Shown here: positions 48,392 through 57,184 of the stretch, in pieces | Position numbering within the stretch: position 1 is the stretch's first letter | How the letters are laid out: each line of letters opens with the position of its first letter | NCBI RefSeq assembly: GCF_009754915.1 | Contig: NZ_WPIK01000002.1 | Location: forward strand, 62,001-126,000 | Length of the DNA: 64,000 nt | Direction: 5' to 3' | Source of the DNA: Mucilaginibacter arboris | GTDB lineage: Bacteria > Bacteroidota > Bacteroidia > Sphingobacteriales > Sphingobacteriaceae | Notes under the pieces: generated by a model | Told to the model about the DNA's origin: nothing | Databases searched by the model: none | The model's input: only the letters and a program-made list of their open reading frames with translations | Program-made: the position numbers and the translations under genes

Positions 48392-49483
48392 CTACAACTT
48401 TGCACCAAAATTCCGCAACCACAAATCCGCCAAAACTAACGCCGCCATCGCTTCAACAATCGGCACCGCACGCGGAACAACACAAGGATCATGACGCCCT
48501 TTGCCTTTTATTTCGGCTGCATTTCCTTCGGCATCAACCGTTTCCTGATTTTGCATAATGGTGGCAACCGGTTTAAAAGCAACTTTAAAAGTAATTGGCA
48601 TTCCGTTGCTGATGCCACCCTGAATGCCGCCGGAATTATTGGTTAACGTTTGAATATTTCCTTTTTCATCTTTCCTAAAAATATCATTATGCTCCGAACC
48701 CAGCATTTCACTTCCGGCAAAACCAGAACCATATTCAAAACCATGAACGGCATTGATGGAAAGCATGGCTTTGCCCAGATCAGCATGTAATTTATCAAAA
48801 ACAGGTTCGCCTAAACCAACCGGACAATTTAAAATGGTACAACTTATTTTCCCGCCAACGGTATCGCCTTTTTTGCGGATGTCATCAATATAATCAATCA
48901 TTTTAGCTGCCGTTTCCGGCTCGGCACAACGGACTATATTTTCTTCCCGGATACGTAAAAAATCTTTCGCGTTTTCAATTTTTACTTCCGGCGCATTCAT
49001 TTTGCCAACGCTGGTTACAGAAGCTAAAATCTCAATTCCTTGTGCTTGAAGCAGCAATTTTGCTACTGCTCCGGCTGCTACGCGTGCTGCAGTTTCCCGT
49101 GCAGAAGAACGGCCGCCGCCACGATGATCACGGATGCCATACTTCGTTTGATAGGTGAAATCTGCGTGAGAAGGGCGGAAAGTATTTTCATTGTGGGAAT
49201 AATCTTTCGATCGCTGATCTTCATTCGGGATCAGCATCGCGATTGGCGTTCCGGTTGACCTTCCTTCAAAAATGCCTGAAAGGATTTGTACGGTATCGCT
49301 TTCTTTGCGTTGCGTGGTAATTTTGGATTGTCCGGGTTTGCGTTTGTCTAATTCGGATTGAATAAAATCCGGATCAATTTCTAATCCTGCCGGACAACCA
49401 TCAATAATAACACCGATTGCCGCGCCGTGCGATTCGCCGAATGTTGTAATGCGGAACGCTTGTCCGAAAGTATTGCCTGCCAT
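48392..49483 (-). CDS. aroC: Chorismate synthase
   Basis: Last step of the common shikimate pathway, forming chorismate from EPSP with reduced FMN. From ATG 49483 the enzyme has 363 residues; an in-frame ATG 72 bases upstream would add unrelated sequence. Signatures: [84 protein letters not shown]. It is the last gene of the pheA-aroG/CM-aroA-aroC operon. Confidence 0.97.
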
Positions 49484-49607
49484 TTGAGGTATGAGGTTTG
49501 AGGTATCAGGTTTTCTGTCATCCCGACGATAGGAGGGATCTTCATCGAACAACAAATTAGTTCGCTTTGATGAAGATTTCTCCCTTTGGTCGAAATAACA
49601 ATGCGTT

Positions 49608-50900
49608 TTAATAAGTTACTTTAAATCCAGCTTTTTTCAAATCATCCCAAAATCCCGGATATGATTTTTCCACCACATTAAAATCTTCAATCTCCACTTC
49701 AGGAATAATCAAAGCCAGCGGCGCAAAAGCCATAGCCATGCGGTGGTCTTCGTAAGTGTTGATGAAAACCTTTTCGGGAATGCTTCTTTTAGCACAGTTT
49801 AATTTGTAAACCTGGCCTTTTTCTACCAGTTCCACGCCAATTTTTGCAAGTTCTGTTTGCAGCGCTTTTACGCGATCTGTTTCTTTGATTTTTAAAGTTT
49901 CCAGGCCGGTAAAAGAAGCATCGTGGCCTAAAGCTGCACAAACTACAATTACAGTTTGCGCCAAATCAGGGCAGGTTTTAAAATCAAAAATCTTGCGGAC
50001 AACCACTTTTGGTTCTTTTCTTAGCCACACACCACCGTCTTTAAATTGAGAAGTGATACCGAAATTAGCCATAATCTCCGTAATTGTACTATCGCCCTGC
50101 AAACTGTAAAGCGTTAATCCCGGAAGAAAAATTTCTGCTTCATCACACAAAGCAGCAATGGCATACCAGTAAGAAGCAGCGCTCCAATCTGGTTCCACAT
50201 AAATGGTTGCGGGTTGAAAAGGTTGATTTTTGATGGAGATAACATTCCCGTTCCATTGATGCCGGATGCCGCATTGCTGCAACATGGATAAAGTCATTTC
50301 TACATAAGGCCGGGAAGTTAATTCGCCTTCAATATGCAAATTTAAACCTAGCGGCAATTGTGAAGCAACCAACAATAAAGCCGTTATATACTGACTGCTG
50401 ATATCGCCTTTAATATTAATTTCAGCCGTTTTTTGCTCAAATCCTCCGGTAATTTTAATTGGCGGAAAACCTTCCTTTTCTTCGTAAGAAATTTCAGCGC
50501 CTAAAGTTCGCAAAGCATCAACCAAAATTCCAATTGGCCGCTGCTTCATCCGTTCCGTTCCAGTTAAAATAACCTGATGCTGTTTTTGCAAGGTAAAAAA
50601 TGCTGTTAAAAAACGCATGGCTGTACCGGCAGGGCCGATGTTTATTTCGGGTGCGAGGTGCGGGGTAAGAGGTACGGGCTCTTGGCCTGATCCTCGCTCT
50701 CCGCTCCCTGATCTTCCCTCCAAAACCCCCGCCAACGTAATCGTATCTGCCGCTTCTGATAAGTTTTCAACCTTAACTTTTCTTTCGCTTAAAGCTGCAA
50801 TAACCAGGGCGCGGTTGCATTCGCTTTTAGAACCGGTAAGCCTGATCTCGGTCTTAATGGCTTTTTCAGGCTTACTTAAAATCAAATTCCCGGCTTCCAT
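49608..50900 (-). CDS. aroA: EPSP synthase with an inserted repeat-derived segment
   Basis: 3-phosphoshikimate 1-carboxyvinyltransferase, 430 residues. [59 protein letters not shown] and [13 protein letters not shown] are conserved, so the enzyme looks complete. Residues about 61-85 ([18 protein letters not shown], then LTPHLAPE) interrupt a normally short loop; the DNA there (50645-50720) carries the same GGAGCGGAGAGCGAGG and CACCTCGC words as intergenic palindromes of this window. Its start overlaps the stop of the aroG/CM gene (TAATG). Dispersed words at 49780 and 49910. Confidence 0.94.
50645..50720. repeat. Palindromic repeat inserted within aroA
   Basis: The segment reads GGGTGCGAGGTGCGGGGTAA ... 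CTCGCTCTCCGCTCCCTG on the plus strand. Its halves are imperfect inverted copies, and it matches in style and words the intergenic repeats at 14885 (GGTGCGAGGTTTGAGG) and 19428 (AGCGGAGAGCGGAG). In frame, and therefore tolerated. Confidence 0.55.
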
Positions 50901-52006
50901 TACGCTTCGGCAACAGTGGAATTATTCATGATCTCTGTTTGCTTACGGATAGATTCGTGGTGCATCAGTTCCAGCAATTTCTCAGTAAAATCGGTGCTTA
51001 ATTTTAATGCTTTGGCGTAAGAAGTGCGTTTGTGCAAAATCTCGTCCCAACGGGTTACTTGTAAAATGGTTACATTATTATCTCTTTTATAAGCACCTAT
51101 TTTTTCTACAACGGCCATTCTTTCTGCCATTTTAGAAATGATCTGATCATCGATCTTGTCAATTTCCTTGCGCAGTTCGGCCATTTTATCCTTTACTTCT
51201 GCATTTTTCACTTCCGGTTTGCGCTGTGTTAAATGGTCCATCAACTCACTTAAAGCAGAAGGTGTAAGTTGTTGTTTGGCATCCGTCCAGGCAACAGAAG
51301 GGTCAATGTGCGATTCGATCATTAAGCCCTGCATATCCATATCCAACGCTTTTTGTGCGATGTATGGGATCAGTTCGCGGTTACCGCAAATATGACTTGG
51401 ATCGTTAATCATTGGCAATTCCGGCGCTAAAGTTTTTAAGCTGATCGCTAAATCCCAATGTGGTTCATTTCGAAAAGCAGATTTTTCGAAAGAAGAAAAT
51501 CCGCGATGGATAGCAGCCAGTTTGGTAATTCCGGCAGCATTAATCCGTTCCAAAGCACCAATCCATAAAGAAAGATCAGGGTTTACCGGGTTTTTGACCA
51601 TTACCGGCACATCAACACCTTTTAAAGCATCCGCAATTTCCTGCACCGTAAACGGATTAACGGTTGAACGTGCACCGATCCATAAAATATCAACGCCAGC
51701 ATTTAAAGCTTCTTCTACGTGTTTCGCATTGGCTACTTCAACAGCAGTTGGCAGGCCAGTTTCTGCTTTGGCGCGTTTTAACCATTCTAAACCAATGCTT
51801 CCGATGCCTTCAAATTCGCCCGGACGCGTACGCGGTTTCCAGATTCCGGCGCGTAGAACGCTTACTTTTCCTGTTTTAGCTAATAAATGTGCAGTTGCAA
51901 GTAATTGTTCTTCGGTTTCTGCGCTGCAAGGGCCGGCAATCAGCAAAGGCTCGTGGTTGATCTTCATCCAGGAGTTTAGCGGTTGTATTTTAAGATCGAG
52001 TTTCAT
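50900..52006 (-). CDS. aroG: DAHP synthase fused to chorismate mutase
   Basis: Bifunctional enzyme. Residues about 1-265 are a type I-beta DAHP synthase (LLIAGPCSAETEEQL, VLRAGIWKPRTRPGEFEG, VMVKNPVNPD, INDPSHICGNRELI), residues about 278-368 a type II chorismate mutase (MAELRKEIDKIDDQIISKMAERMAVVEKIGAYKRDNN, then RWDEIL and LMHHESIRKQ). Fusion of the first step to the chorismate branch point is common in this phylum and allows feedback. The stop overlaps the aroA start by one base, and the gene is 56 bases after pheA. Confidence 0.95.
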   Translation of the reverse strand: MKLDLKIQPLNSWMKINHEPLLIAGPCSAETEEQLLATAHLLAKTGKVSVLRAGIWKPRTRPGEFEGIGSIGLEWLKRAKAETGLPTAVEVANAKHVEEALNAGVDILWIGARSTVNPFTVQEIADALKGVDVPVMVKNPVNPDLSLWIGALERINAAGITKLAAIHRGFSSFEKSAFRNEPHWDLAISLKTLAPELPMINDPSHICGNRELIPYIAQKALDMDMQGLMIESHIDPSVAWTDAKQQLTPSALSELMDHLTQRKPEVKNAEVKDKMAELRKEIDKIDDQIISKMAERMAVVEKIGAYKRDNNVTILQVTRWDEILHKRTSYAKALKLSTDFTEKLLELMHHESIRKQTEIMNNSTVAEA

Positions 52007-52062: not shown

Positions 52063-52893
52063 TTAGATTTTGTCGTTTTTACGGTATTCGCCTAAAATGT
52101 TAAAGTTATGGGTGTATTTTAAAGCTTGTTTAATAGCAGCATCGTATTGCTTTGGCTCCTGCCATTCCACATCTGCATAAAAATTATATTCGTTTGGTTT
52201 TCCTAAAACCGGCATAGATTGAATTTTGCTGAGATTAATTTCGTTTTCTGCAAAGATATTAAGCACTTTGGCTAAAGATCCAACCTCATTTCCAGCCTGA
52301 AAGCAAAGTGAAGCTTTATTCGGATCAGCAATTGTACCGTTATGTTTATCAGCCATAATCAAAAAGCGTGTATAATTCTTTTTATTGGATTCTATGCGTT
52401 TCTCCAAAGCATTTAACTCGTATAATTCGGCAGCCATCGTATTGGCAATGGCAACTGTGTCCATCAGCTTTTCATCATGTACACGTTTCGCGCAAGCCGC
52501 GGTGTCACTGCTTTCTATTACTTTGATTTGCGGATATTCTTCCATAAAATCAACACATTGCCGCAAAGCGATCGGGTGGGAGATGGCATATTTTACATCT
52601 TCAAACTTAACGCCCGGATAAGCCAGCAAATGTAATTGGATACGCAGGGAAACTTCGCCCACAACCGGGAAATTGTAATTCATCATCAGCGAATAGTTGG
52701 GCAATAAGCTGCCGGCAATGCTGTTTTCTATCGCCATCACCACGTAATCAGCTTCTTTGCGGCTTAATGCTTCAAATGTTTGCTTAAAAGAAGTACATTC
52801 TACCAATTCAATATCTTCTCCAAAAAACTTAACTGCCGCTTCCTGATGAAAAGAAGCTTTGATTCCTTGTATGGCAACCCGTGGTTTGTTCAT
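52063..52893 (-). CDS. pheA: Prephenate dehydratase with ACT domain
   Basis: Makes phenylpyruvate for phenylalanine synthesis. The first 180 residues form the catalytic domain (VAIQGIKASFHQEAAVKFF, VMAIENSIAGSL, AISHPIALRQCVDF, SSDTAACAKRV, NYTRFLIM) and the rest an ACT domain for phenylalanine feedback (FQAGNEVGSLAKVLNIFAENEINLSKIQSMPV). It is the first structural gene of the aromatic operon and is directly preceded by an attenuator. Monofunctional: no mutase, which lies in the next gene. Confidence 0.96.
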   Translation of the reverse strand: MNKPRVAIQGIKASFHQEAAVKFFGEDIELVECTSFKQTFEALSRKEADYVVMAIENSIAGSLLPNYSLMMNYNFPVVGEVSLRIQLHLLAYPGVKFEDVKYAISHPIALRQCVDFMEEYPQIKVIESSDTAACAKRVHDEKLMDTVAIANTMAAELYELNALEKRIESNKKNYTRFLIMADKHNGTIADPNKASLCFQAGNEVGSLAKVLNIFAENEINLSKIQSMPVLGKPNEYNFYADVEWQEPKQYDAAIKQALKYTHNFNILGEYRKNDKI

Positions 52894-52909
52894 GATGCTT
52901 GTAAATGCA

Positions 52910-52942
52910 AAAAAGTCCCGGCTGTTGGGCCCGGGACTTTTT
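52910..52942 (-). terminator. pheA attenuator terminator
   Basis: AAAAAGTCCCGG (52910-52921) and CCGGGACTTTTT (52931-52942) form a perfect 12-bp stem with a 9-base loop, followed on the minus strand by a T-run, 16 bases before the pheA start. The leader segment GGGCCGGGTC (about 52979-52990, minus strand) is complementary to the GACCCGG/GGGCCC part of the stem and could form the antiterminator. Confidence 0.85.
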
Positions 52943-52975
52943 GATGTTTTATTTCTTTATTTCAGATTTAACATA

Positions 52976-53044
52976 TCAGACCCGGCCCTTACCACTAAAG
53001 TAAAAGTAAAAGAAACCGAAGAAAAATGTGTTGTTGATAGTCAT
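52976..53044 (-). CDS. pheA leader peptide (attenuator)
   Basis: A 22-codon ORF from ATG 53044 to TGA 52976. The peptide begins MTINNT and then reads FFFGFFYFYF, seven phenylalanines and two tyrosines in ten residues, before SGKGRV. The terminator follows 33 bases downstream and pheA shortly after. This is the classical layout of translation-coupled attenuation, like the E. coli pheL leader. Shortage of charged phenylalanyl-tRNA would stall the ribosome on the run and favour readthrough into the operon. Confidence 0.88.
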   Translation of the reverse strand: MTINNTFFFGFFYFYFSGKGRV

Positions 53045-53060
53045 TGTTGTATTGCGTTTT

Positions 53061-53090
53061 CAAATGTACATGGAAAAATGAGAATGTCAA
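53061..53090 (-). promoter_or_regulatory. Promoter of the aromatic amino acid operon
   Basis: On the minus strand TTG (53090-53088), 19 bases, TACATTTG (53068-53061). This fits the Bacteroidota consensus well and places the start about 53055, 11 bases before the leader ATG. Confidence 0.7.
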
Positions 53091-53187
53091 GAGGAAAGTT
53101 GAAATATTTTCTGAATTAAGGAACTGATAACGTAGGGTATGCTTGCGGATTATTGTATATTTAGTAATAAAATTACATCAATTTATT

Positions 53188-53493
53188 ATGGATAACTCAA
53201 ATACGATAGGCATAAAATACAGAGCTTTACTTGTTGAAACTATAAATAAACTTGAAGATTTTAATAGTAGCACCTATAATTCAATTCTGAATTTAAGTAT
53301 GCAAGGCGAATTAAAAGATATTGATGATTTATTTGAAAATGGTGAAGTTGTAAATTTTAAACTTGCTGATTTTAGAAATCTATCTGATCAAAACGTACAA
53401 CATTTGATTGAAATAATGGATTTTATTAGTGAAAAGTATCAAATTTTAAAAAACATTAATACGATTAGTGATGATGATCTTTTACCATTTTAA
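53188..53493 (+). CDS. Hypothetical protein
   Basis: A 101-residue protein (from MDNSNTIG at 53188; 15 upstream in-frame codons are poorly supported). Acidic and helical: YRALLVETINKLEDFNSSTYNSILNLSM and FRNLSDQNVQHLIEIMDFISEKYQILKN, like a small regulatory or coiled-coil protein. The gene ends 4 bases inside the convergent PD-(D/E)XK gene. Unknown function. Confidence 0.5.
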   Translation: MDNSNTIGIKYRALLVETINKLEDFNSSTYNSILNLSMQGELKDIDDLFENGEVVNFKLADFRNLSDQNVQHLIEIMDFISEKYQILKNINTISDDDLLPF

Positions 53494-54476
53494 TTTTCTA
53501 TCGTTCTGTCAAGAATGTCAGTATATGATTTTTTAATTAAGAATTTTATATCATTATTAAAGTCTTCGTCTTTTTTAAGTTCTACAAAATATTGATTAGG
53601 GTATTGTTTATAATGAGGTTTGACATTAGCAAAATTCGGAGAAGCACCTAAATGTGTAAAATAAATTTTTAGTGAAGATTGACTCAAAGTGCAATAAGCA
53701 AAAACTTTTACTCTTTTACCGTTTGGGTTATTAAGAGAAAAATCTCGGATTGTATATTTAATATCTTTATCAGCCAAATCTAACTCATACTTAAAATAAT
53801 TATGTACATCCTTTGCTATAAATAATATTTTATCAGGTATCCCATTGCTTCTTTGTTGTTTTTCATATTCATCCCAAGAAGGAAAGCGAACCCGATTAAA
53901 AGAAGATGCTTTTTTAGCAAAAGTTTCTGAAATTATATAACTCTCATTTATATCTTTTGCGACAAATCTGCTTAAAGTCATTCCGAAAGTTTCTACATCA
54001 TCAATAATTGTATTTCCTGCTAAAAATTTAGCTTTAAGATCAGAATCAATATCGCTACCAATTAAAATTCCTATCAATTTTTTACTTAAATATTTCTCAT
54101 CAACATTGTTTACTCTGAAAATTTCTTTTTTCTTTTCAAAACTATTTAGTGACCTTAAATAATCATGCAATTGCGATAGATGTGCTTCTTCAAGTTTCCC
54201 TTTCTTCAATTCAACAACTGCTAAAAATTCATCATCAGGTTTGTCTCCTTTAATATAAATAAGCATATCTAACCTGCCATCACCATTAGAATCATTTCTT
54301 GCTCCTTTAATATGTATTTGAGTTTGTATGACTTCGACTTTTGAATTAATATCGCTAATACTTAAAATATCAGGATTTTCAATTAGAAAAGCTTCCATAT
54401 GCAATTCGGTTAAGAACATTTTTGGTTCTAAATCAATTTGGGTTGCATAAGCTTGTTTAAATAATTTTATACTCAT
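53490..54476 (-). CDS. Putative PD-(D/E)XK nuclease with DUF5655-like C-terminus
   Basis: A 328-residue protein. Residues 1-115 carry HMEAFLIENPDIL, DGRLDMLIYI and FLAVVELKKGKLEEAHLSQLHDYLRSL, with D then ELK after about 17 residues, the D-x(n)-E-x-K core of a NucS/DUF91-type nuclease. The last 110 residues (DKILFIAKDVHNYFKY, VKVFAYCTLSQSSLKIYFTH, YFVELKKDEDFNNDIKFLIKKSY) resemble DUF5655. This combination is seen in defence-related or repair loci. AT-rich compared with neighbours, consistent with recent gain. Function not proven. Confidence 0.6.
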   Translation of the reverse strand: MSIKLFKQAYATQIDLEPKMFLTELHMEAFLIENPDILSISDINSKVEVIQTQIHIKGARNDSNGDGRLDMLIYIKGDKPDDEFLAVVELKKGKLEEAHLSQLHDYLRSLNSFEKKKEIFRVNNVDEKYLSKKLIGILIGSDIDSDLKAKFLAGNTIIDDVETFGMTLSRFVAKDINESYIISETFAKKASSFNRVRFPSWDEYEKQQRSNGIPDKILFIAKDVHNYFKYELDLADKDIKYTIRDFSLNNPNGKRVKVFAYCTLSQSSLKIYFTHLGASPNFANVKPHYKQYPNQYFVELKKDEDFNNDIKFLIKKSYTDILDRTIEN

Positions 54477-56128: not shown

Positions 56129-57184
56129 TTAATAATTAAGGTAGAAAAGTAAACTTGCACAAAGTTCATCTTCCGTGCAGAAACTATCAATAGTGCATTG
56201 TCCGATCTGCGTCAATAACGAGCAGTTGATCCTGGCCGAAGCATTCTTTTTATCGCTTTTCATAATCTCGATCAAAGCCGGGATTGATGCTTCTTTTATC
56301 GGGTATTTTCCGTAGAAACGGCGCAGCGTTTGTACAATTTCTGTTAGTTCATCTTGTGGTAAACCGGTTTTTTGGACAGATAAAAATGCTTCGCAAACCA
56401 TGCCGATCGCAACTGCTTCGCCATGCAACAACGGGTTTTTACCACTTTGCAAAGAAAAACTTTCAACCGCGTGGCCAATCGTATGGCCGAAATTCAGGAT
56501 CTTGCGTAAACCTTTTTCTTCCGGGTCTTGCAATACAATATTGTTTTTTATTTCTACAGAATGGCGGATCAGTTCAGGGTCAATTTTTTCCGGCGATGCT
56601 TCTTTTAGCAGGTAAAAATAGTCGCGGTCTGCAATTAAACCATGTTTCAGCATTTCGGCAAAGCCCGAAACTAATTGCCTTTCGGGTAAAGTTTTCAGGA
56701 AATTTGTATCGATAAAAACAGCTTTCGGTTGTGTAAAAGTACCGATGATATTTTTAAGGTGATCCATATCGATGCCGGTTTTGCCGCCAACAGAAGCATC
56801 TACCTGCGAAAGTAAAGTAGTTGGTATTTGCACAAAATCAATCCCTCTTTTAAAAGTTGATGCTGCAAAACCGCCCATATCCGTAATCACGCCCCCGCCA
56901 ACGTTGATGAGCAGGCTGTTTCTATCGGCACCAAAATCAATCAGCATTTTCCAGATGCCAATGCAAAAATCAATCGTTTTATTTTCTTCGCCGGAGGTAA
57001 CCTCAATCAGGTCATAATCTGTTATTTTCAGGTGCTCGATCAAAAAAGGCAGGCAATGTTTTTCGGTTTGCTCGTCTATCAAAAAAAACACTTTCGTATA
57101 GTTGCCTTCTTGTAAAAACTGGTTTAATCCGGTAAAATTATCATTAAAAATAACCGGGTAAGAAATACTTTGTATCGTTTCCAT
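56129..57184 (-). CDS. aroB: 3-dehydroquinate synthase
   Basis: Second step of the shikimate pathway. The 351 residues contain VFFLIDEQTEKHCLPF, DFGADRNSLLINVGGGVITDMGGFAASTFKRGIDFVQIPTTLLSQVDASVGGKTGID, HGLIAD and GHTIGHAVE with the zinc ligands. Located in a separate operon (S4-protein, aroB, desaturase) from the other aro genes of the window. The start codon lies in a GGTAAAATAAGCATG sequence, a one-mismatch word; two exact dispersed words are inside (56287, 56596). Confidence 0.95.
   Translation of the reverse strand: METIQSISYPVIFNDNFTGLNQFLQEGNYTKVFFLIDEQTEKHCLPFLIEHLKITDYDLIEVTSGEENKTIDFCIGIWKMLIDFGADRNSLLINVGGGVITDMGGFAASTFKRGIDFVQIPTTLLSQVDASVGGKTGIDMDHLKNIIGTFTQPKAVFIDTNFLKTLPERQLVSGFAEMLKHGLIADRDYFYLLKEASPEKIDPELIRHSVEIKNNIVLQDPEEKGLRKILNFGHTIGHAVESFSLQSGKNPLLHGEAVAIGMVCEAFLSVQKTGLPQDELTEIVQTLRRFYGKYPIKEASIPALIEIMKSDKKNASARINCSLLTQIGQCTIDSFCTEDELCASLLFYLNY

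Follow-up and report, generated by a model that had tools for sequence, protein, structure and literature searches.

A predicted ribosome-mediated attenuator with phenylalanine and tyrosine codons upstream of the pheA-aroG/CM-aroA-aroC operon of Mucilaginibacter arboris and its relatives

Analysis of a 64,000-nt stretch of the M. arboris genome (the window) identified a leader element on the minus strand, directly upstream of the operon pheA-aroG/CM-aroA-aroC. Our sequence comparisons indicate, with a probability of roughly 0.9, that this element is a classical ribosome-mediated transcription attenuator; we infer that the leader is transcribed, that transcription can terminate within it and that ribosome stalling on its codons would report the supply of the amino acids sensed. 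An earlier interpretation, made from the letters and their open reading frames (the sequence-only reading), had placed such an attenuator at 52910-53090. That extent is essentially right, with the end shifting slightly to give an element of ~53090-52909 (Table 1).

Table 1. Features assigned to the leader element and the operon that follows it (positions in the window).
Feature	Position	Strand	Basis or remark
Promoter upstream element TTGACA	53085..53090	-	sequence; TTG-box spacing in relatives
Promoter -7 box TACATTTG (TAnnTTTG type)	53061..53068	-	conservation and reported sigma-A box
Leader peptide ORF, 22 codons, MTINNTFFFGFFYFYFSGKGRV	52976..53044	-	coding test and conservation
Regulatory codons, 7 Phe and 2 Tyr in codons 7-16, also region 1	52997..53026	-	
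Region 1, 5' arm of pause hairpin (CTTTTACT)	52999..53006	-	RNAalifold, pair counts
3' arm of pause hairpin, overlapping region 2	52986..52993	-	RNAalifold, pair counts
Region 2 (AGGGCCGGGTC), predicted antiterminator arm, within the last leader codons	52979..52989	-	duplex, masking, pair counts
Region 3, terminator 5' arm and loop, partner of region 2	52922..52942	-	RNAalifold, pair counts, duplex
Region 4, terminator 3' arm and end of T-run	52909..52921	-	RNAalifold, pair counts
pheA, prephenate dehydratase with ACT domain	52063..52893	-	
aroG/CM, DAHP synthase I fused to type II chorismate mutase	50900..52006	-	
aroA, EPSP synthase	49608..50900	-	
aroC, chorismate synthase	48392..49555	-	true start likely ~34 codons further in

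The leader ORF, which the sequence-only reading had described as 22 codons containing FFFGFFYFYF, is present at 53044-52976 (minus strand). When the 249-base region was shuffled 5000 times with its dinucleotide composition kept, no shuffle gave an ATG-started ORF with nine aromatic residues in ten codons; the best reached seven. Across 43 distinct upstream sequences from Sphingobacteriaceae, codons 7-15 encode on average 83% F/Y/W in the leader frame versus 17% and 14% in the other two, and stops inside these codons are found in 0, 0 and 22 of the 43 leaders for the three frames. The start codon is ATG in 42 cases and GTG in one. A conserved hairpin behind an unconserved frame was the outcome that the sequence-only reading had named as speaking against it; the frame and the aromatic run—that is, a run of codons for an end product of the operon—are kept in 43/43, together with the antiterminator segment and the hairpin. 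Taken with the frame test, these patterns suggest that the ORF is translated.

Within the aromatic run, codons interchange among TTT/TTC, TAT/TAC and TGG, and it is therefore the aromatic character that is kept, not one residue. The 43 leaders hold 176 Tyr, 155 Phe and 17 Trp codons; Phe and Tyr codons both occur in every leader, and Trp codons in 16. By sequence, the leader is therefore not a sensor of phenylalanine only: the original label of a phenylalanine leader was sound as regards attenuation and too narrow as regards the amino acid, and the tyrosine codons to which the same reading had drawn attention (two in codons 7-16 of the window's leader) prove to be a constant feature. In nine of the 43 leaders, the ORF stops at codon 16, ahead of the antiterminator segment, which is present behind the stop (AGCCGGGAC in six leaders, altered in the other three) and is thus kept as RNA rather than as peptide.

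These data bear on a reading without regulatory coupling, in which the hairpin terminates transcription in the usual way and the ORF either arose by chance in T-rich sequence or encodes a small peptide with a function of its own. T-rich sequence is indeed common in the region (the GC content of the leader region is 0.35), yet the frame-specific aromatic codons in all 43 leaders and the shuffling result stand against this explanation, as does the retention of the antiterminator segment behind the stop. Moreover, the hairpin sits between promoter and pheA, a position that makes sense only if termination is conditional. We regard the uncoupled reading as scarcely credible; a chance origin of the leader is rejected by the shuffles together with the conservation.

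The terminator hairpin (52942-52910) pairs AAAAAGTCCCGG with CCGGGACTTTTT in 12 perfect pairs around the loop GCCCAACAG, and is followed by six T at 52914-52909, the hairpin and T-run ending 15-16 nt before the pheA start (52893). Both this hairpin and the complementary segment GGGCCGGGTC (52988-52979, minus strand), lying over the last leader codons, had been reported in the sequence-only reading and are present. The hairpin is absent from the output of a simple terminator scan of the window, which admits loops of up to 8 (the loop here is 9); our first hairpin finder missed six of the 43 Sphingobacteriaceae terminators that are visible in the alignment, the window's among them. Folding of the leader region gave a z-score of -2.34, with 5 of 200 shuffles folding equally well.

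Applied unprompted to 39 aligned leaders, RNAalifold returned two helices, namely the 3:4 terminator and a 1:2 hairpin—the conserved pause hairpin, absent from the sequence-only description—with the aromatic codons CTTTTACT as its 5' arm. An intrinsic terminator and a pause hairpin containing the regulatory codons were thus both found. (Four of the 43 leaders, L018, L027, L029 and L041, were left out of alignments A1 and A2 as divergent or having a long spacer; covariance model R1 later matched the first three.) Pair counts for 1:2, which take in outer and middle stem parts named by hand beyond the RNAalifold helices, give together with 3:4 a paired fraction of 95.3% of cells. Two-sided changes were seen in 41 cells and 10 pairs, as opposed to 11.9 and 5.2 in shuffles (0/500 for both measures, kinship ignored), and further pair types numbered 27 versus 24.1 (15/500); controls in which the helices were slid gave 2-7 pairs with two-sided changes, in 4-16 cells. 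One double change, shared by nine sequences, couples a synonymous Tyr substitution (TAC to TAT) with AGT to AAT on the opposite arm. The outer 1:2 stem is 91.3% paired; in the window's genus, a change from Tyr to Phe leaves a mismatch there. On these counts, pause hairpin and terminator covary.

The short distance between the hairpin and the pheA start could also be taken to mean that alternative hairpins expose or hide that start, i.e., that the ribosome on the leader controls translation rather than termination. We consider this very unlikely: the GC-rich covarying stem, followed by at least four T that are invariant in 39/39 aligned leaders, has the shape of an intrinsic terminator, and the pheA start itself lies outside the stem.

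The alternative 2:3 pairing is supported by complementarity. In the antiterminator register 85.3% of cells are paired, as against at most 51.7% when the register is slid, so that an antiterminator excluding the terminator can be drawn, without covariation in excess of shuffles within Sphingobacteriaceae (its score was reached by 81/500 shuffles and its number of double-change pairs by 320/500). Each leader's own partner was nevertheless better than permuted partners: 0 of 10000 permutations were as good, both over the set of 60 leaders and over the 23 divergent ones (kinship ignored), and the 2:3 energy was better than the mean of swaps in 53/60 and 21/23 leaders, respectively. In L018 and L027, regions 2, 3 and 4 have all changed together, from CCGGG/CCCGG/CCGGG to TCGGG/CCCGA/TCGGG.

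We also folded the leaders with a ribosome masking part of the RNA. For transcripts ending before region 4, the mean p(2:3) was 0.87 with the A site on codons 7-12 and 0.01 with the ribosome at the stop, a contrast that holds in 40 of 41 leaders (kinship ignored; L033 and L034, missed by a second hairpin finder, fell outside both the duplex and the masking tests). In the window's leader, p(2:3) is 0.59 at F16 and drops just beyond the aromatic run, to 0.21 at S17 and 0.00 at G18. Once the full terminator is transcribed, equilibrium folding favours it even for a ribosome stalled on the aromatic codons (p(3:4) of 0.77-0.95 in the window's leader), and therefore the order of synthesis must decide. 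When the ribosome is absent, 2:3 is readily formed ahead of region 4 (mean 0.77), and an untranslated leader may therefore read through.

According to the mechanism that we propose, RNA polymerase would start near 53056, with a ribosome following on the leader ORF. When charged Phe- and Tyr-tRNA are ample, the ribosome would reach the stop codon and cover region 2, leaving region 3 to pair with region 4; the terminator would form and transcription would end near 52909. When either tRNA is short, the ribosome would be expected to stall in the aromatic run and open the 1:2 hairpin, whereupon region 2, now free, could pair with region 3 ahead of the synthesis of region 4, and the polymerase would continue into pheA-aroG/CM-aroA-aroC.

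The promoter before the leader is of the Bacteroidota type and matches what the sequence-only reading had set out (TTG-N19-TACATTTG, the spacing being 19 nt); it predicts a transcription start near 53056. A TAnnTTTG box lies 12-45 nt before the leader start in 39 of 43 Sphingobacteriaceae leaders compared with 157 of 6842 control windows, and a TTG is found 17-21 nt before the box in 35 of the 43. A simple promoter scan ranks this promoter first (10/12 matches), such sites being common (23 found, 16.1 expected). PMC9723704 gives TAnnTTTG, at -12 to -5, as the box of sigma-A in Flavobacterium psychrophilum and likewise mentions "strong clues" that leader peptides attenuate operons for amino-acid biosynthesis in this species. 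That organism belongs to the same phylum and shares the promoter box of the pheA leader; the passages compared give no operon names.

Ribosome-mediated attenuation is textbook biology of enteric bacteria, in which pheA is the first gene after a Phe-rich leader ORF, a terminator before pheA and competing hairpins. The leader described here is alike in all four respects to the enteric one (Rfam Phe_leader, RF01859) and probably works like the enteric pheA and trp attenuators; it differs in that Tyr codons occur throughout and Trp codons in some leaders, and in that the operon adds aroG/CM, aroA and aroC. The leader falls outside RF01859 (22.9 bits versus a gathering score of 55, E 0.11) and outside Bacteroid-trp (RF01692), which is absent from the 18 matches obtained up to E 10 over 52850-53150 and has no match in the window's genome at E 0.001. 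At gathering level, a tmRNA is the sole Rfam match in the whole window, and no Rfam family recognises the pheA leader; at a permissive level, the leader weakly resembles three peptide leaders (Phe, Thr and His; 21.7-22.9 bits).

The lack of a match at gathering level leaves room for an unfamiliar RNA class that responds to some metabolite or protein instead, with the ORF being incidental. This seems extremely improbable to us, since no structure was found beyond two simple hairpins and a conserved ORF lies between promoter and terminator, and since sister leaders, as described below, switch codons with the downstream gene.

Returning to attenuation by the ribosome, precedents within the phylum exist. 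PMC2864571 lists Bacteroid-trp among the cis-regulatory motifs of Bacteroidetes. Relatives hold two matches to it, one above and one below cut-off, both on WWW leaders with a hairpin and T-run behind them; leader attenuation is therefore known in kind in the phylum, with Trp codons there as opposed to Phe/Tyr in the pheA leader. Small ORFs reminiscent of leader peptides are described for Bacteroides thetaiotaomicron (PMC7366714), and the earlier scope of attenuation is covered in PMC2965389, PMC1262725 and PMC4833913. A pheA attenuator from Bacteroidota was not found in the open literature searched; older attenuation papers may contain one. Of the complete case in Bacteroidota that the sequence-only reading called notable, all stated parts are present; leader attenuation as such has precedent in Bacteroid-trp and F. 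psychrophilum. The proposed mechanism is ordinary; as far as these searches show, what is new for the phylum is the gene, the breadth and the codon mix.

Turning to the genes themselves, domain and family calls agree for all four, bearing out the operon content first proposed. The mechanical aroC start (49555, TTG) is probably ~34 codons too early, because the family match begins at residue 34-35. Among named records, the closest PheA (94%) belongs to a metagenome-assembled genome of Mucilaginibacter and the next (91%) to one from Sphingobacteriaceae; relatives in Mucilaginibacter and Pedobacter come after these. The order pheA, aroG/CM, aroA, aroC recurs in 34 of 36 Sphingobacteriaceae loci examined, some of them from the same genomes, the two exceptions being short contigs that end within aroA. 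Upstream of the leader by ~3 kb, on the same strand, lies aroB (3-dehydroquinate synthase, 56129-57184, minus strand), with a fatty-acid-hydroxylase-like gene and one gene without assignment in between; a 328-aa ORF at 53490-54476 (minus strand) has a single weak match, to a PD-(D/E)XK nuclease, below cut-off.

The leader is widespread in the family. A pheA match was obtained in 32 of 37 sampled Sphingobacteriaceae genomes, the window's own included, and conservation in sister genomes, for which the sequence-only reading had asked, is complete among these: reading located a leader before pheA in 32/32. Covariance model R1 matches 233 of 251 Sphingobacteriaceae genomes, a slight overcount because the match in G006, a genome without a pheA match, is a spurious terminator match (G081, of the same genus and with a similar score, is unread). 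Two genomes missed by R1 (G008 and G032) have leaders by reading, and among the other 16 without an R1 match, four have no pheA match and 12 lie outside the pheA check. Duplicates (L031, L032 and L040) and the non-family loci L047-L053 stand outside the family counts; L047 has too little upstream sequence, and in the other six (L048-L053; labelled Prolixibacteraceae, related genera or Lachnospiraceae) such a leader was not seen before pheA.

In a search across the class Bacteroidia, R1 matched 47 of 345 genomes and a wider model, R2, built after removal of six weak antisense matches, 90 of 395 (E 0.01). We read 73 of the places found (33 + 40), the weaker R2 places in part. Thirty-three (15 + 18) lie before pheA, checked by BLAST of PheA, in 13 families beyond Sphingobacteriaceae; four, the Phe/Tyr leaders L194, L196, L209 and L221 of family f15 (one of those 13), stand directly before aroG/CM, identified by domains, and not before pheA; eight are the Thr/Ile (six), trpE (one) and hydroxylase (one) leaders described below; and 28 (11/33 + 17/40), lacking the expected genes, are taken as chance terminator matches.

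We also examined the tyrosine route. A strong TyrA match (E < 1e-27) occurs in just 11 of 37 Sphingobacteriaceae genomes and a Phe hydroxylase match in 17 of 37. In G000-G002 (G000 being the window's genome) Phe hydroxylase gave no match, and the weak TyrA matches, at 21.6-28.5 bits around the cut-off of 26.5 and mostly in ~420-aa frames, are unlikely to be true TyrA. The mean number of Tyr codons per leader, for 30 of the 32 leaders (G004 and G017 left out) and with kinship ignored, is 2.7 with strong TyrA (n=9), 4.8 with the hydroxylase only (n=11) and 4.2 with neither (n=10); in the last group, the counts are 2, 2 and 3 in the window's genus and 4-6 in the other seven. A dependence of Tyr codon number on how tyrosine is made is thus borne out in part only, and we do not claim it as such.

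Finally, we found sister leaders whose codon content fits the gene downstream: Thr/Ile before thrA, Trp before trpE and Tyr before a hydroxylase. The window's genome itself holds a candidate Trp leader, MMNQNHNNNWQSLPKRKAGWCF (L168), just before trpE, with a GC-rich hairpin and T-run behind it and no match to Bacteroid-trp, and a candidate Thr/Ile leader, MLSNQSIIITIITTTGNISEEG (L227), before thrA, also followed by a hairpin and T-run. In Sphingobacteriaceae genus g13, six Thr/Ile leaders (MNFNTSIITTIIITTGINQRG; L139-L143 and L193) with a terminator precede aspartokinase-homoserine dehydrogenase (two of the genes were checked by Pfam and the rest by BLAST against one of the two). These thrA leaders are Thr/Ile-rich like the Thr operon leader of Rfam (Thr_leader, RF00506), to which L139 scores 32.9 bits (gathering cut-off 55). 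L139 also has a match to the Flavo-1 RNA, at 324-451 on the upstream side of its Thr/Ile leader, which falls slightly short of the gathering score (39.7 of 42 bits). Elsewhere, L133 is a leader with YWW before trpE, and L131 a Tyr-rich one (MLFANAYYYHYYHATPARNGSFMF, YYYHYYH, ~802-933) before a short biopterin-dependent aromatic amino acid hydroxylase (PF00351; 958-1689), an arrangement suggesting a Tyr-regulated route from Phe to Tyr.

Combining these observations, we tentatively put forward, at somewhat short of even odds, a class-wide aromatic attenuator of Bacteroidia, found in at least 14 families before pheA or aroG/CM. It would sense Phe and Tyr, with Trp in some cases, and in Sphingobacteriaceae would gate DAHP synthase, EPSP synthase and chorismate synthase along with pheA. 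Its Tyr codons would track the tyrosine route—fewer with TyrA, more without, and shifted towards Phe in the window's genus, itself without strong TyrA or Phe hydroxylase—and it would be re-coded elsewhere for Thr/Ile, Trp or Tyr.

If ribosome-mediated attenuation is true across Sphingobacteriaceae and 13 more families, transcription and translation would be closely coupled in this phylum too. The conserved pheA leaders provide material for a new Rfam family, and they offer a defined, testable switch for a large part of the aromatic pathway.
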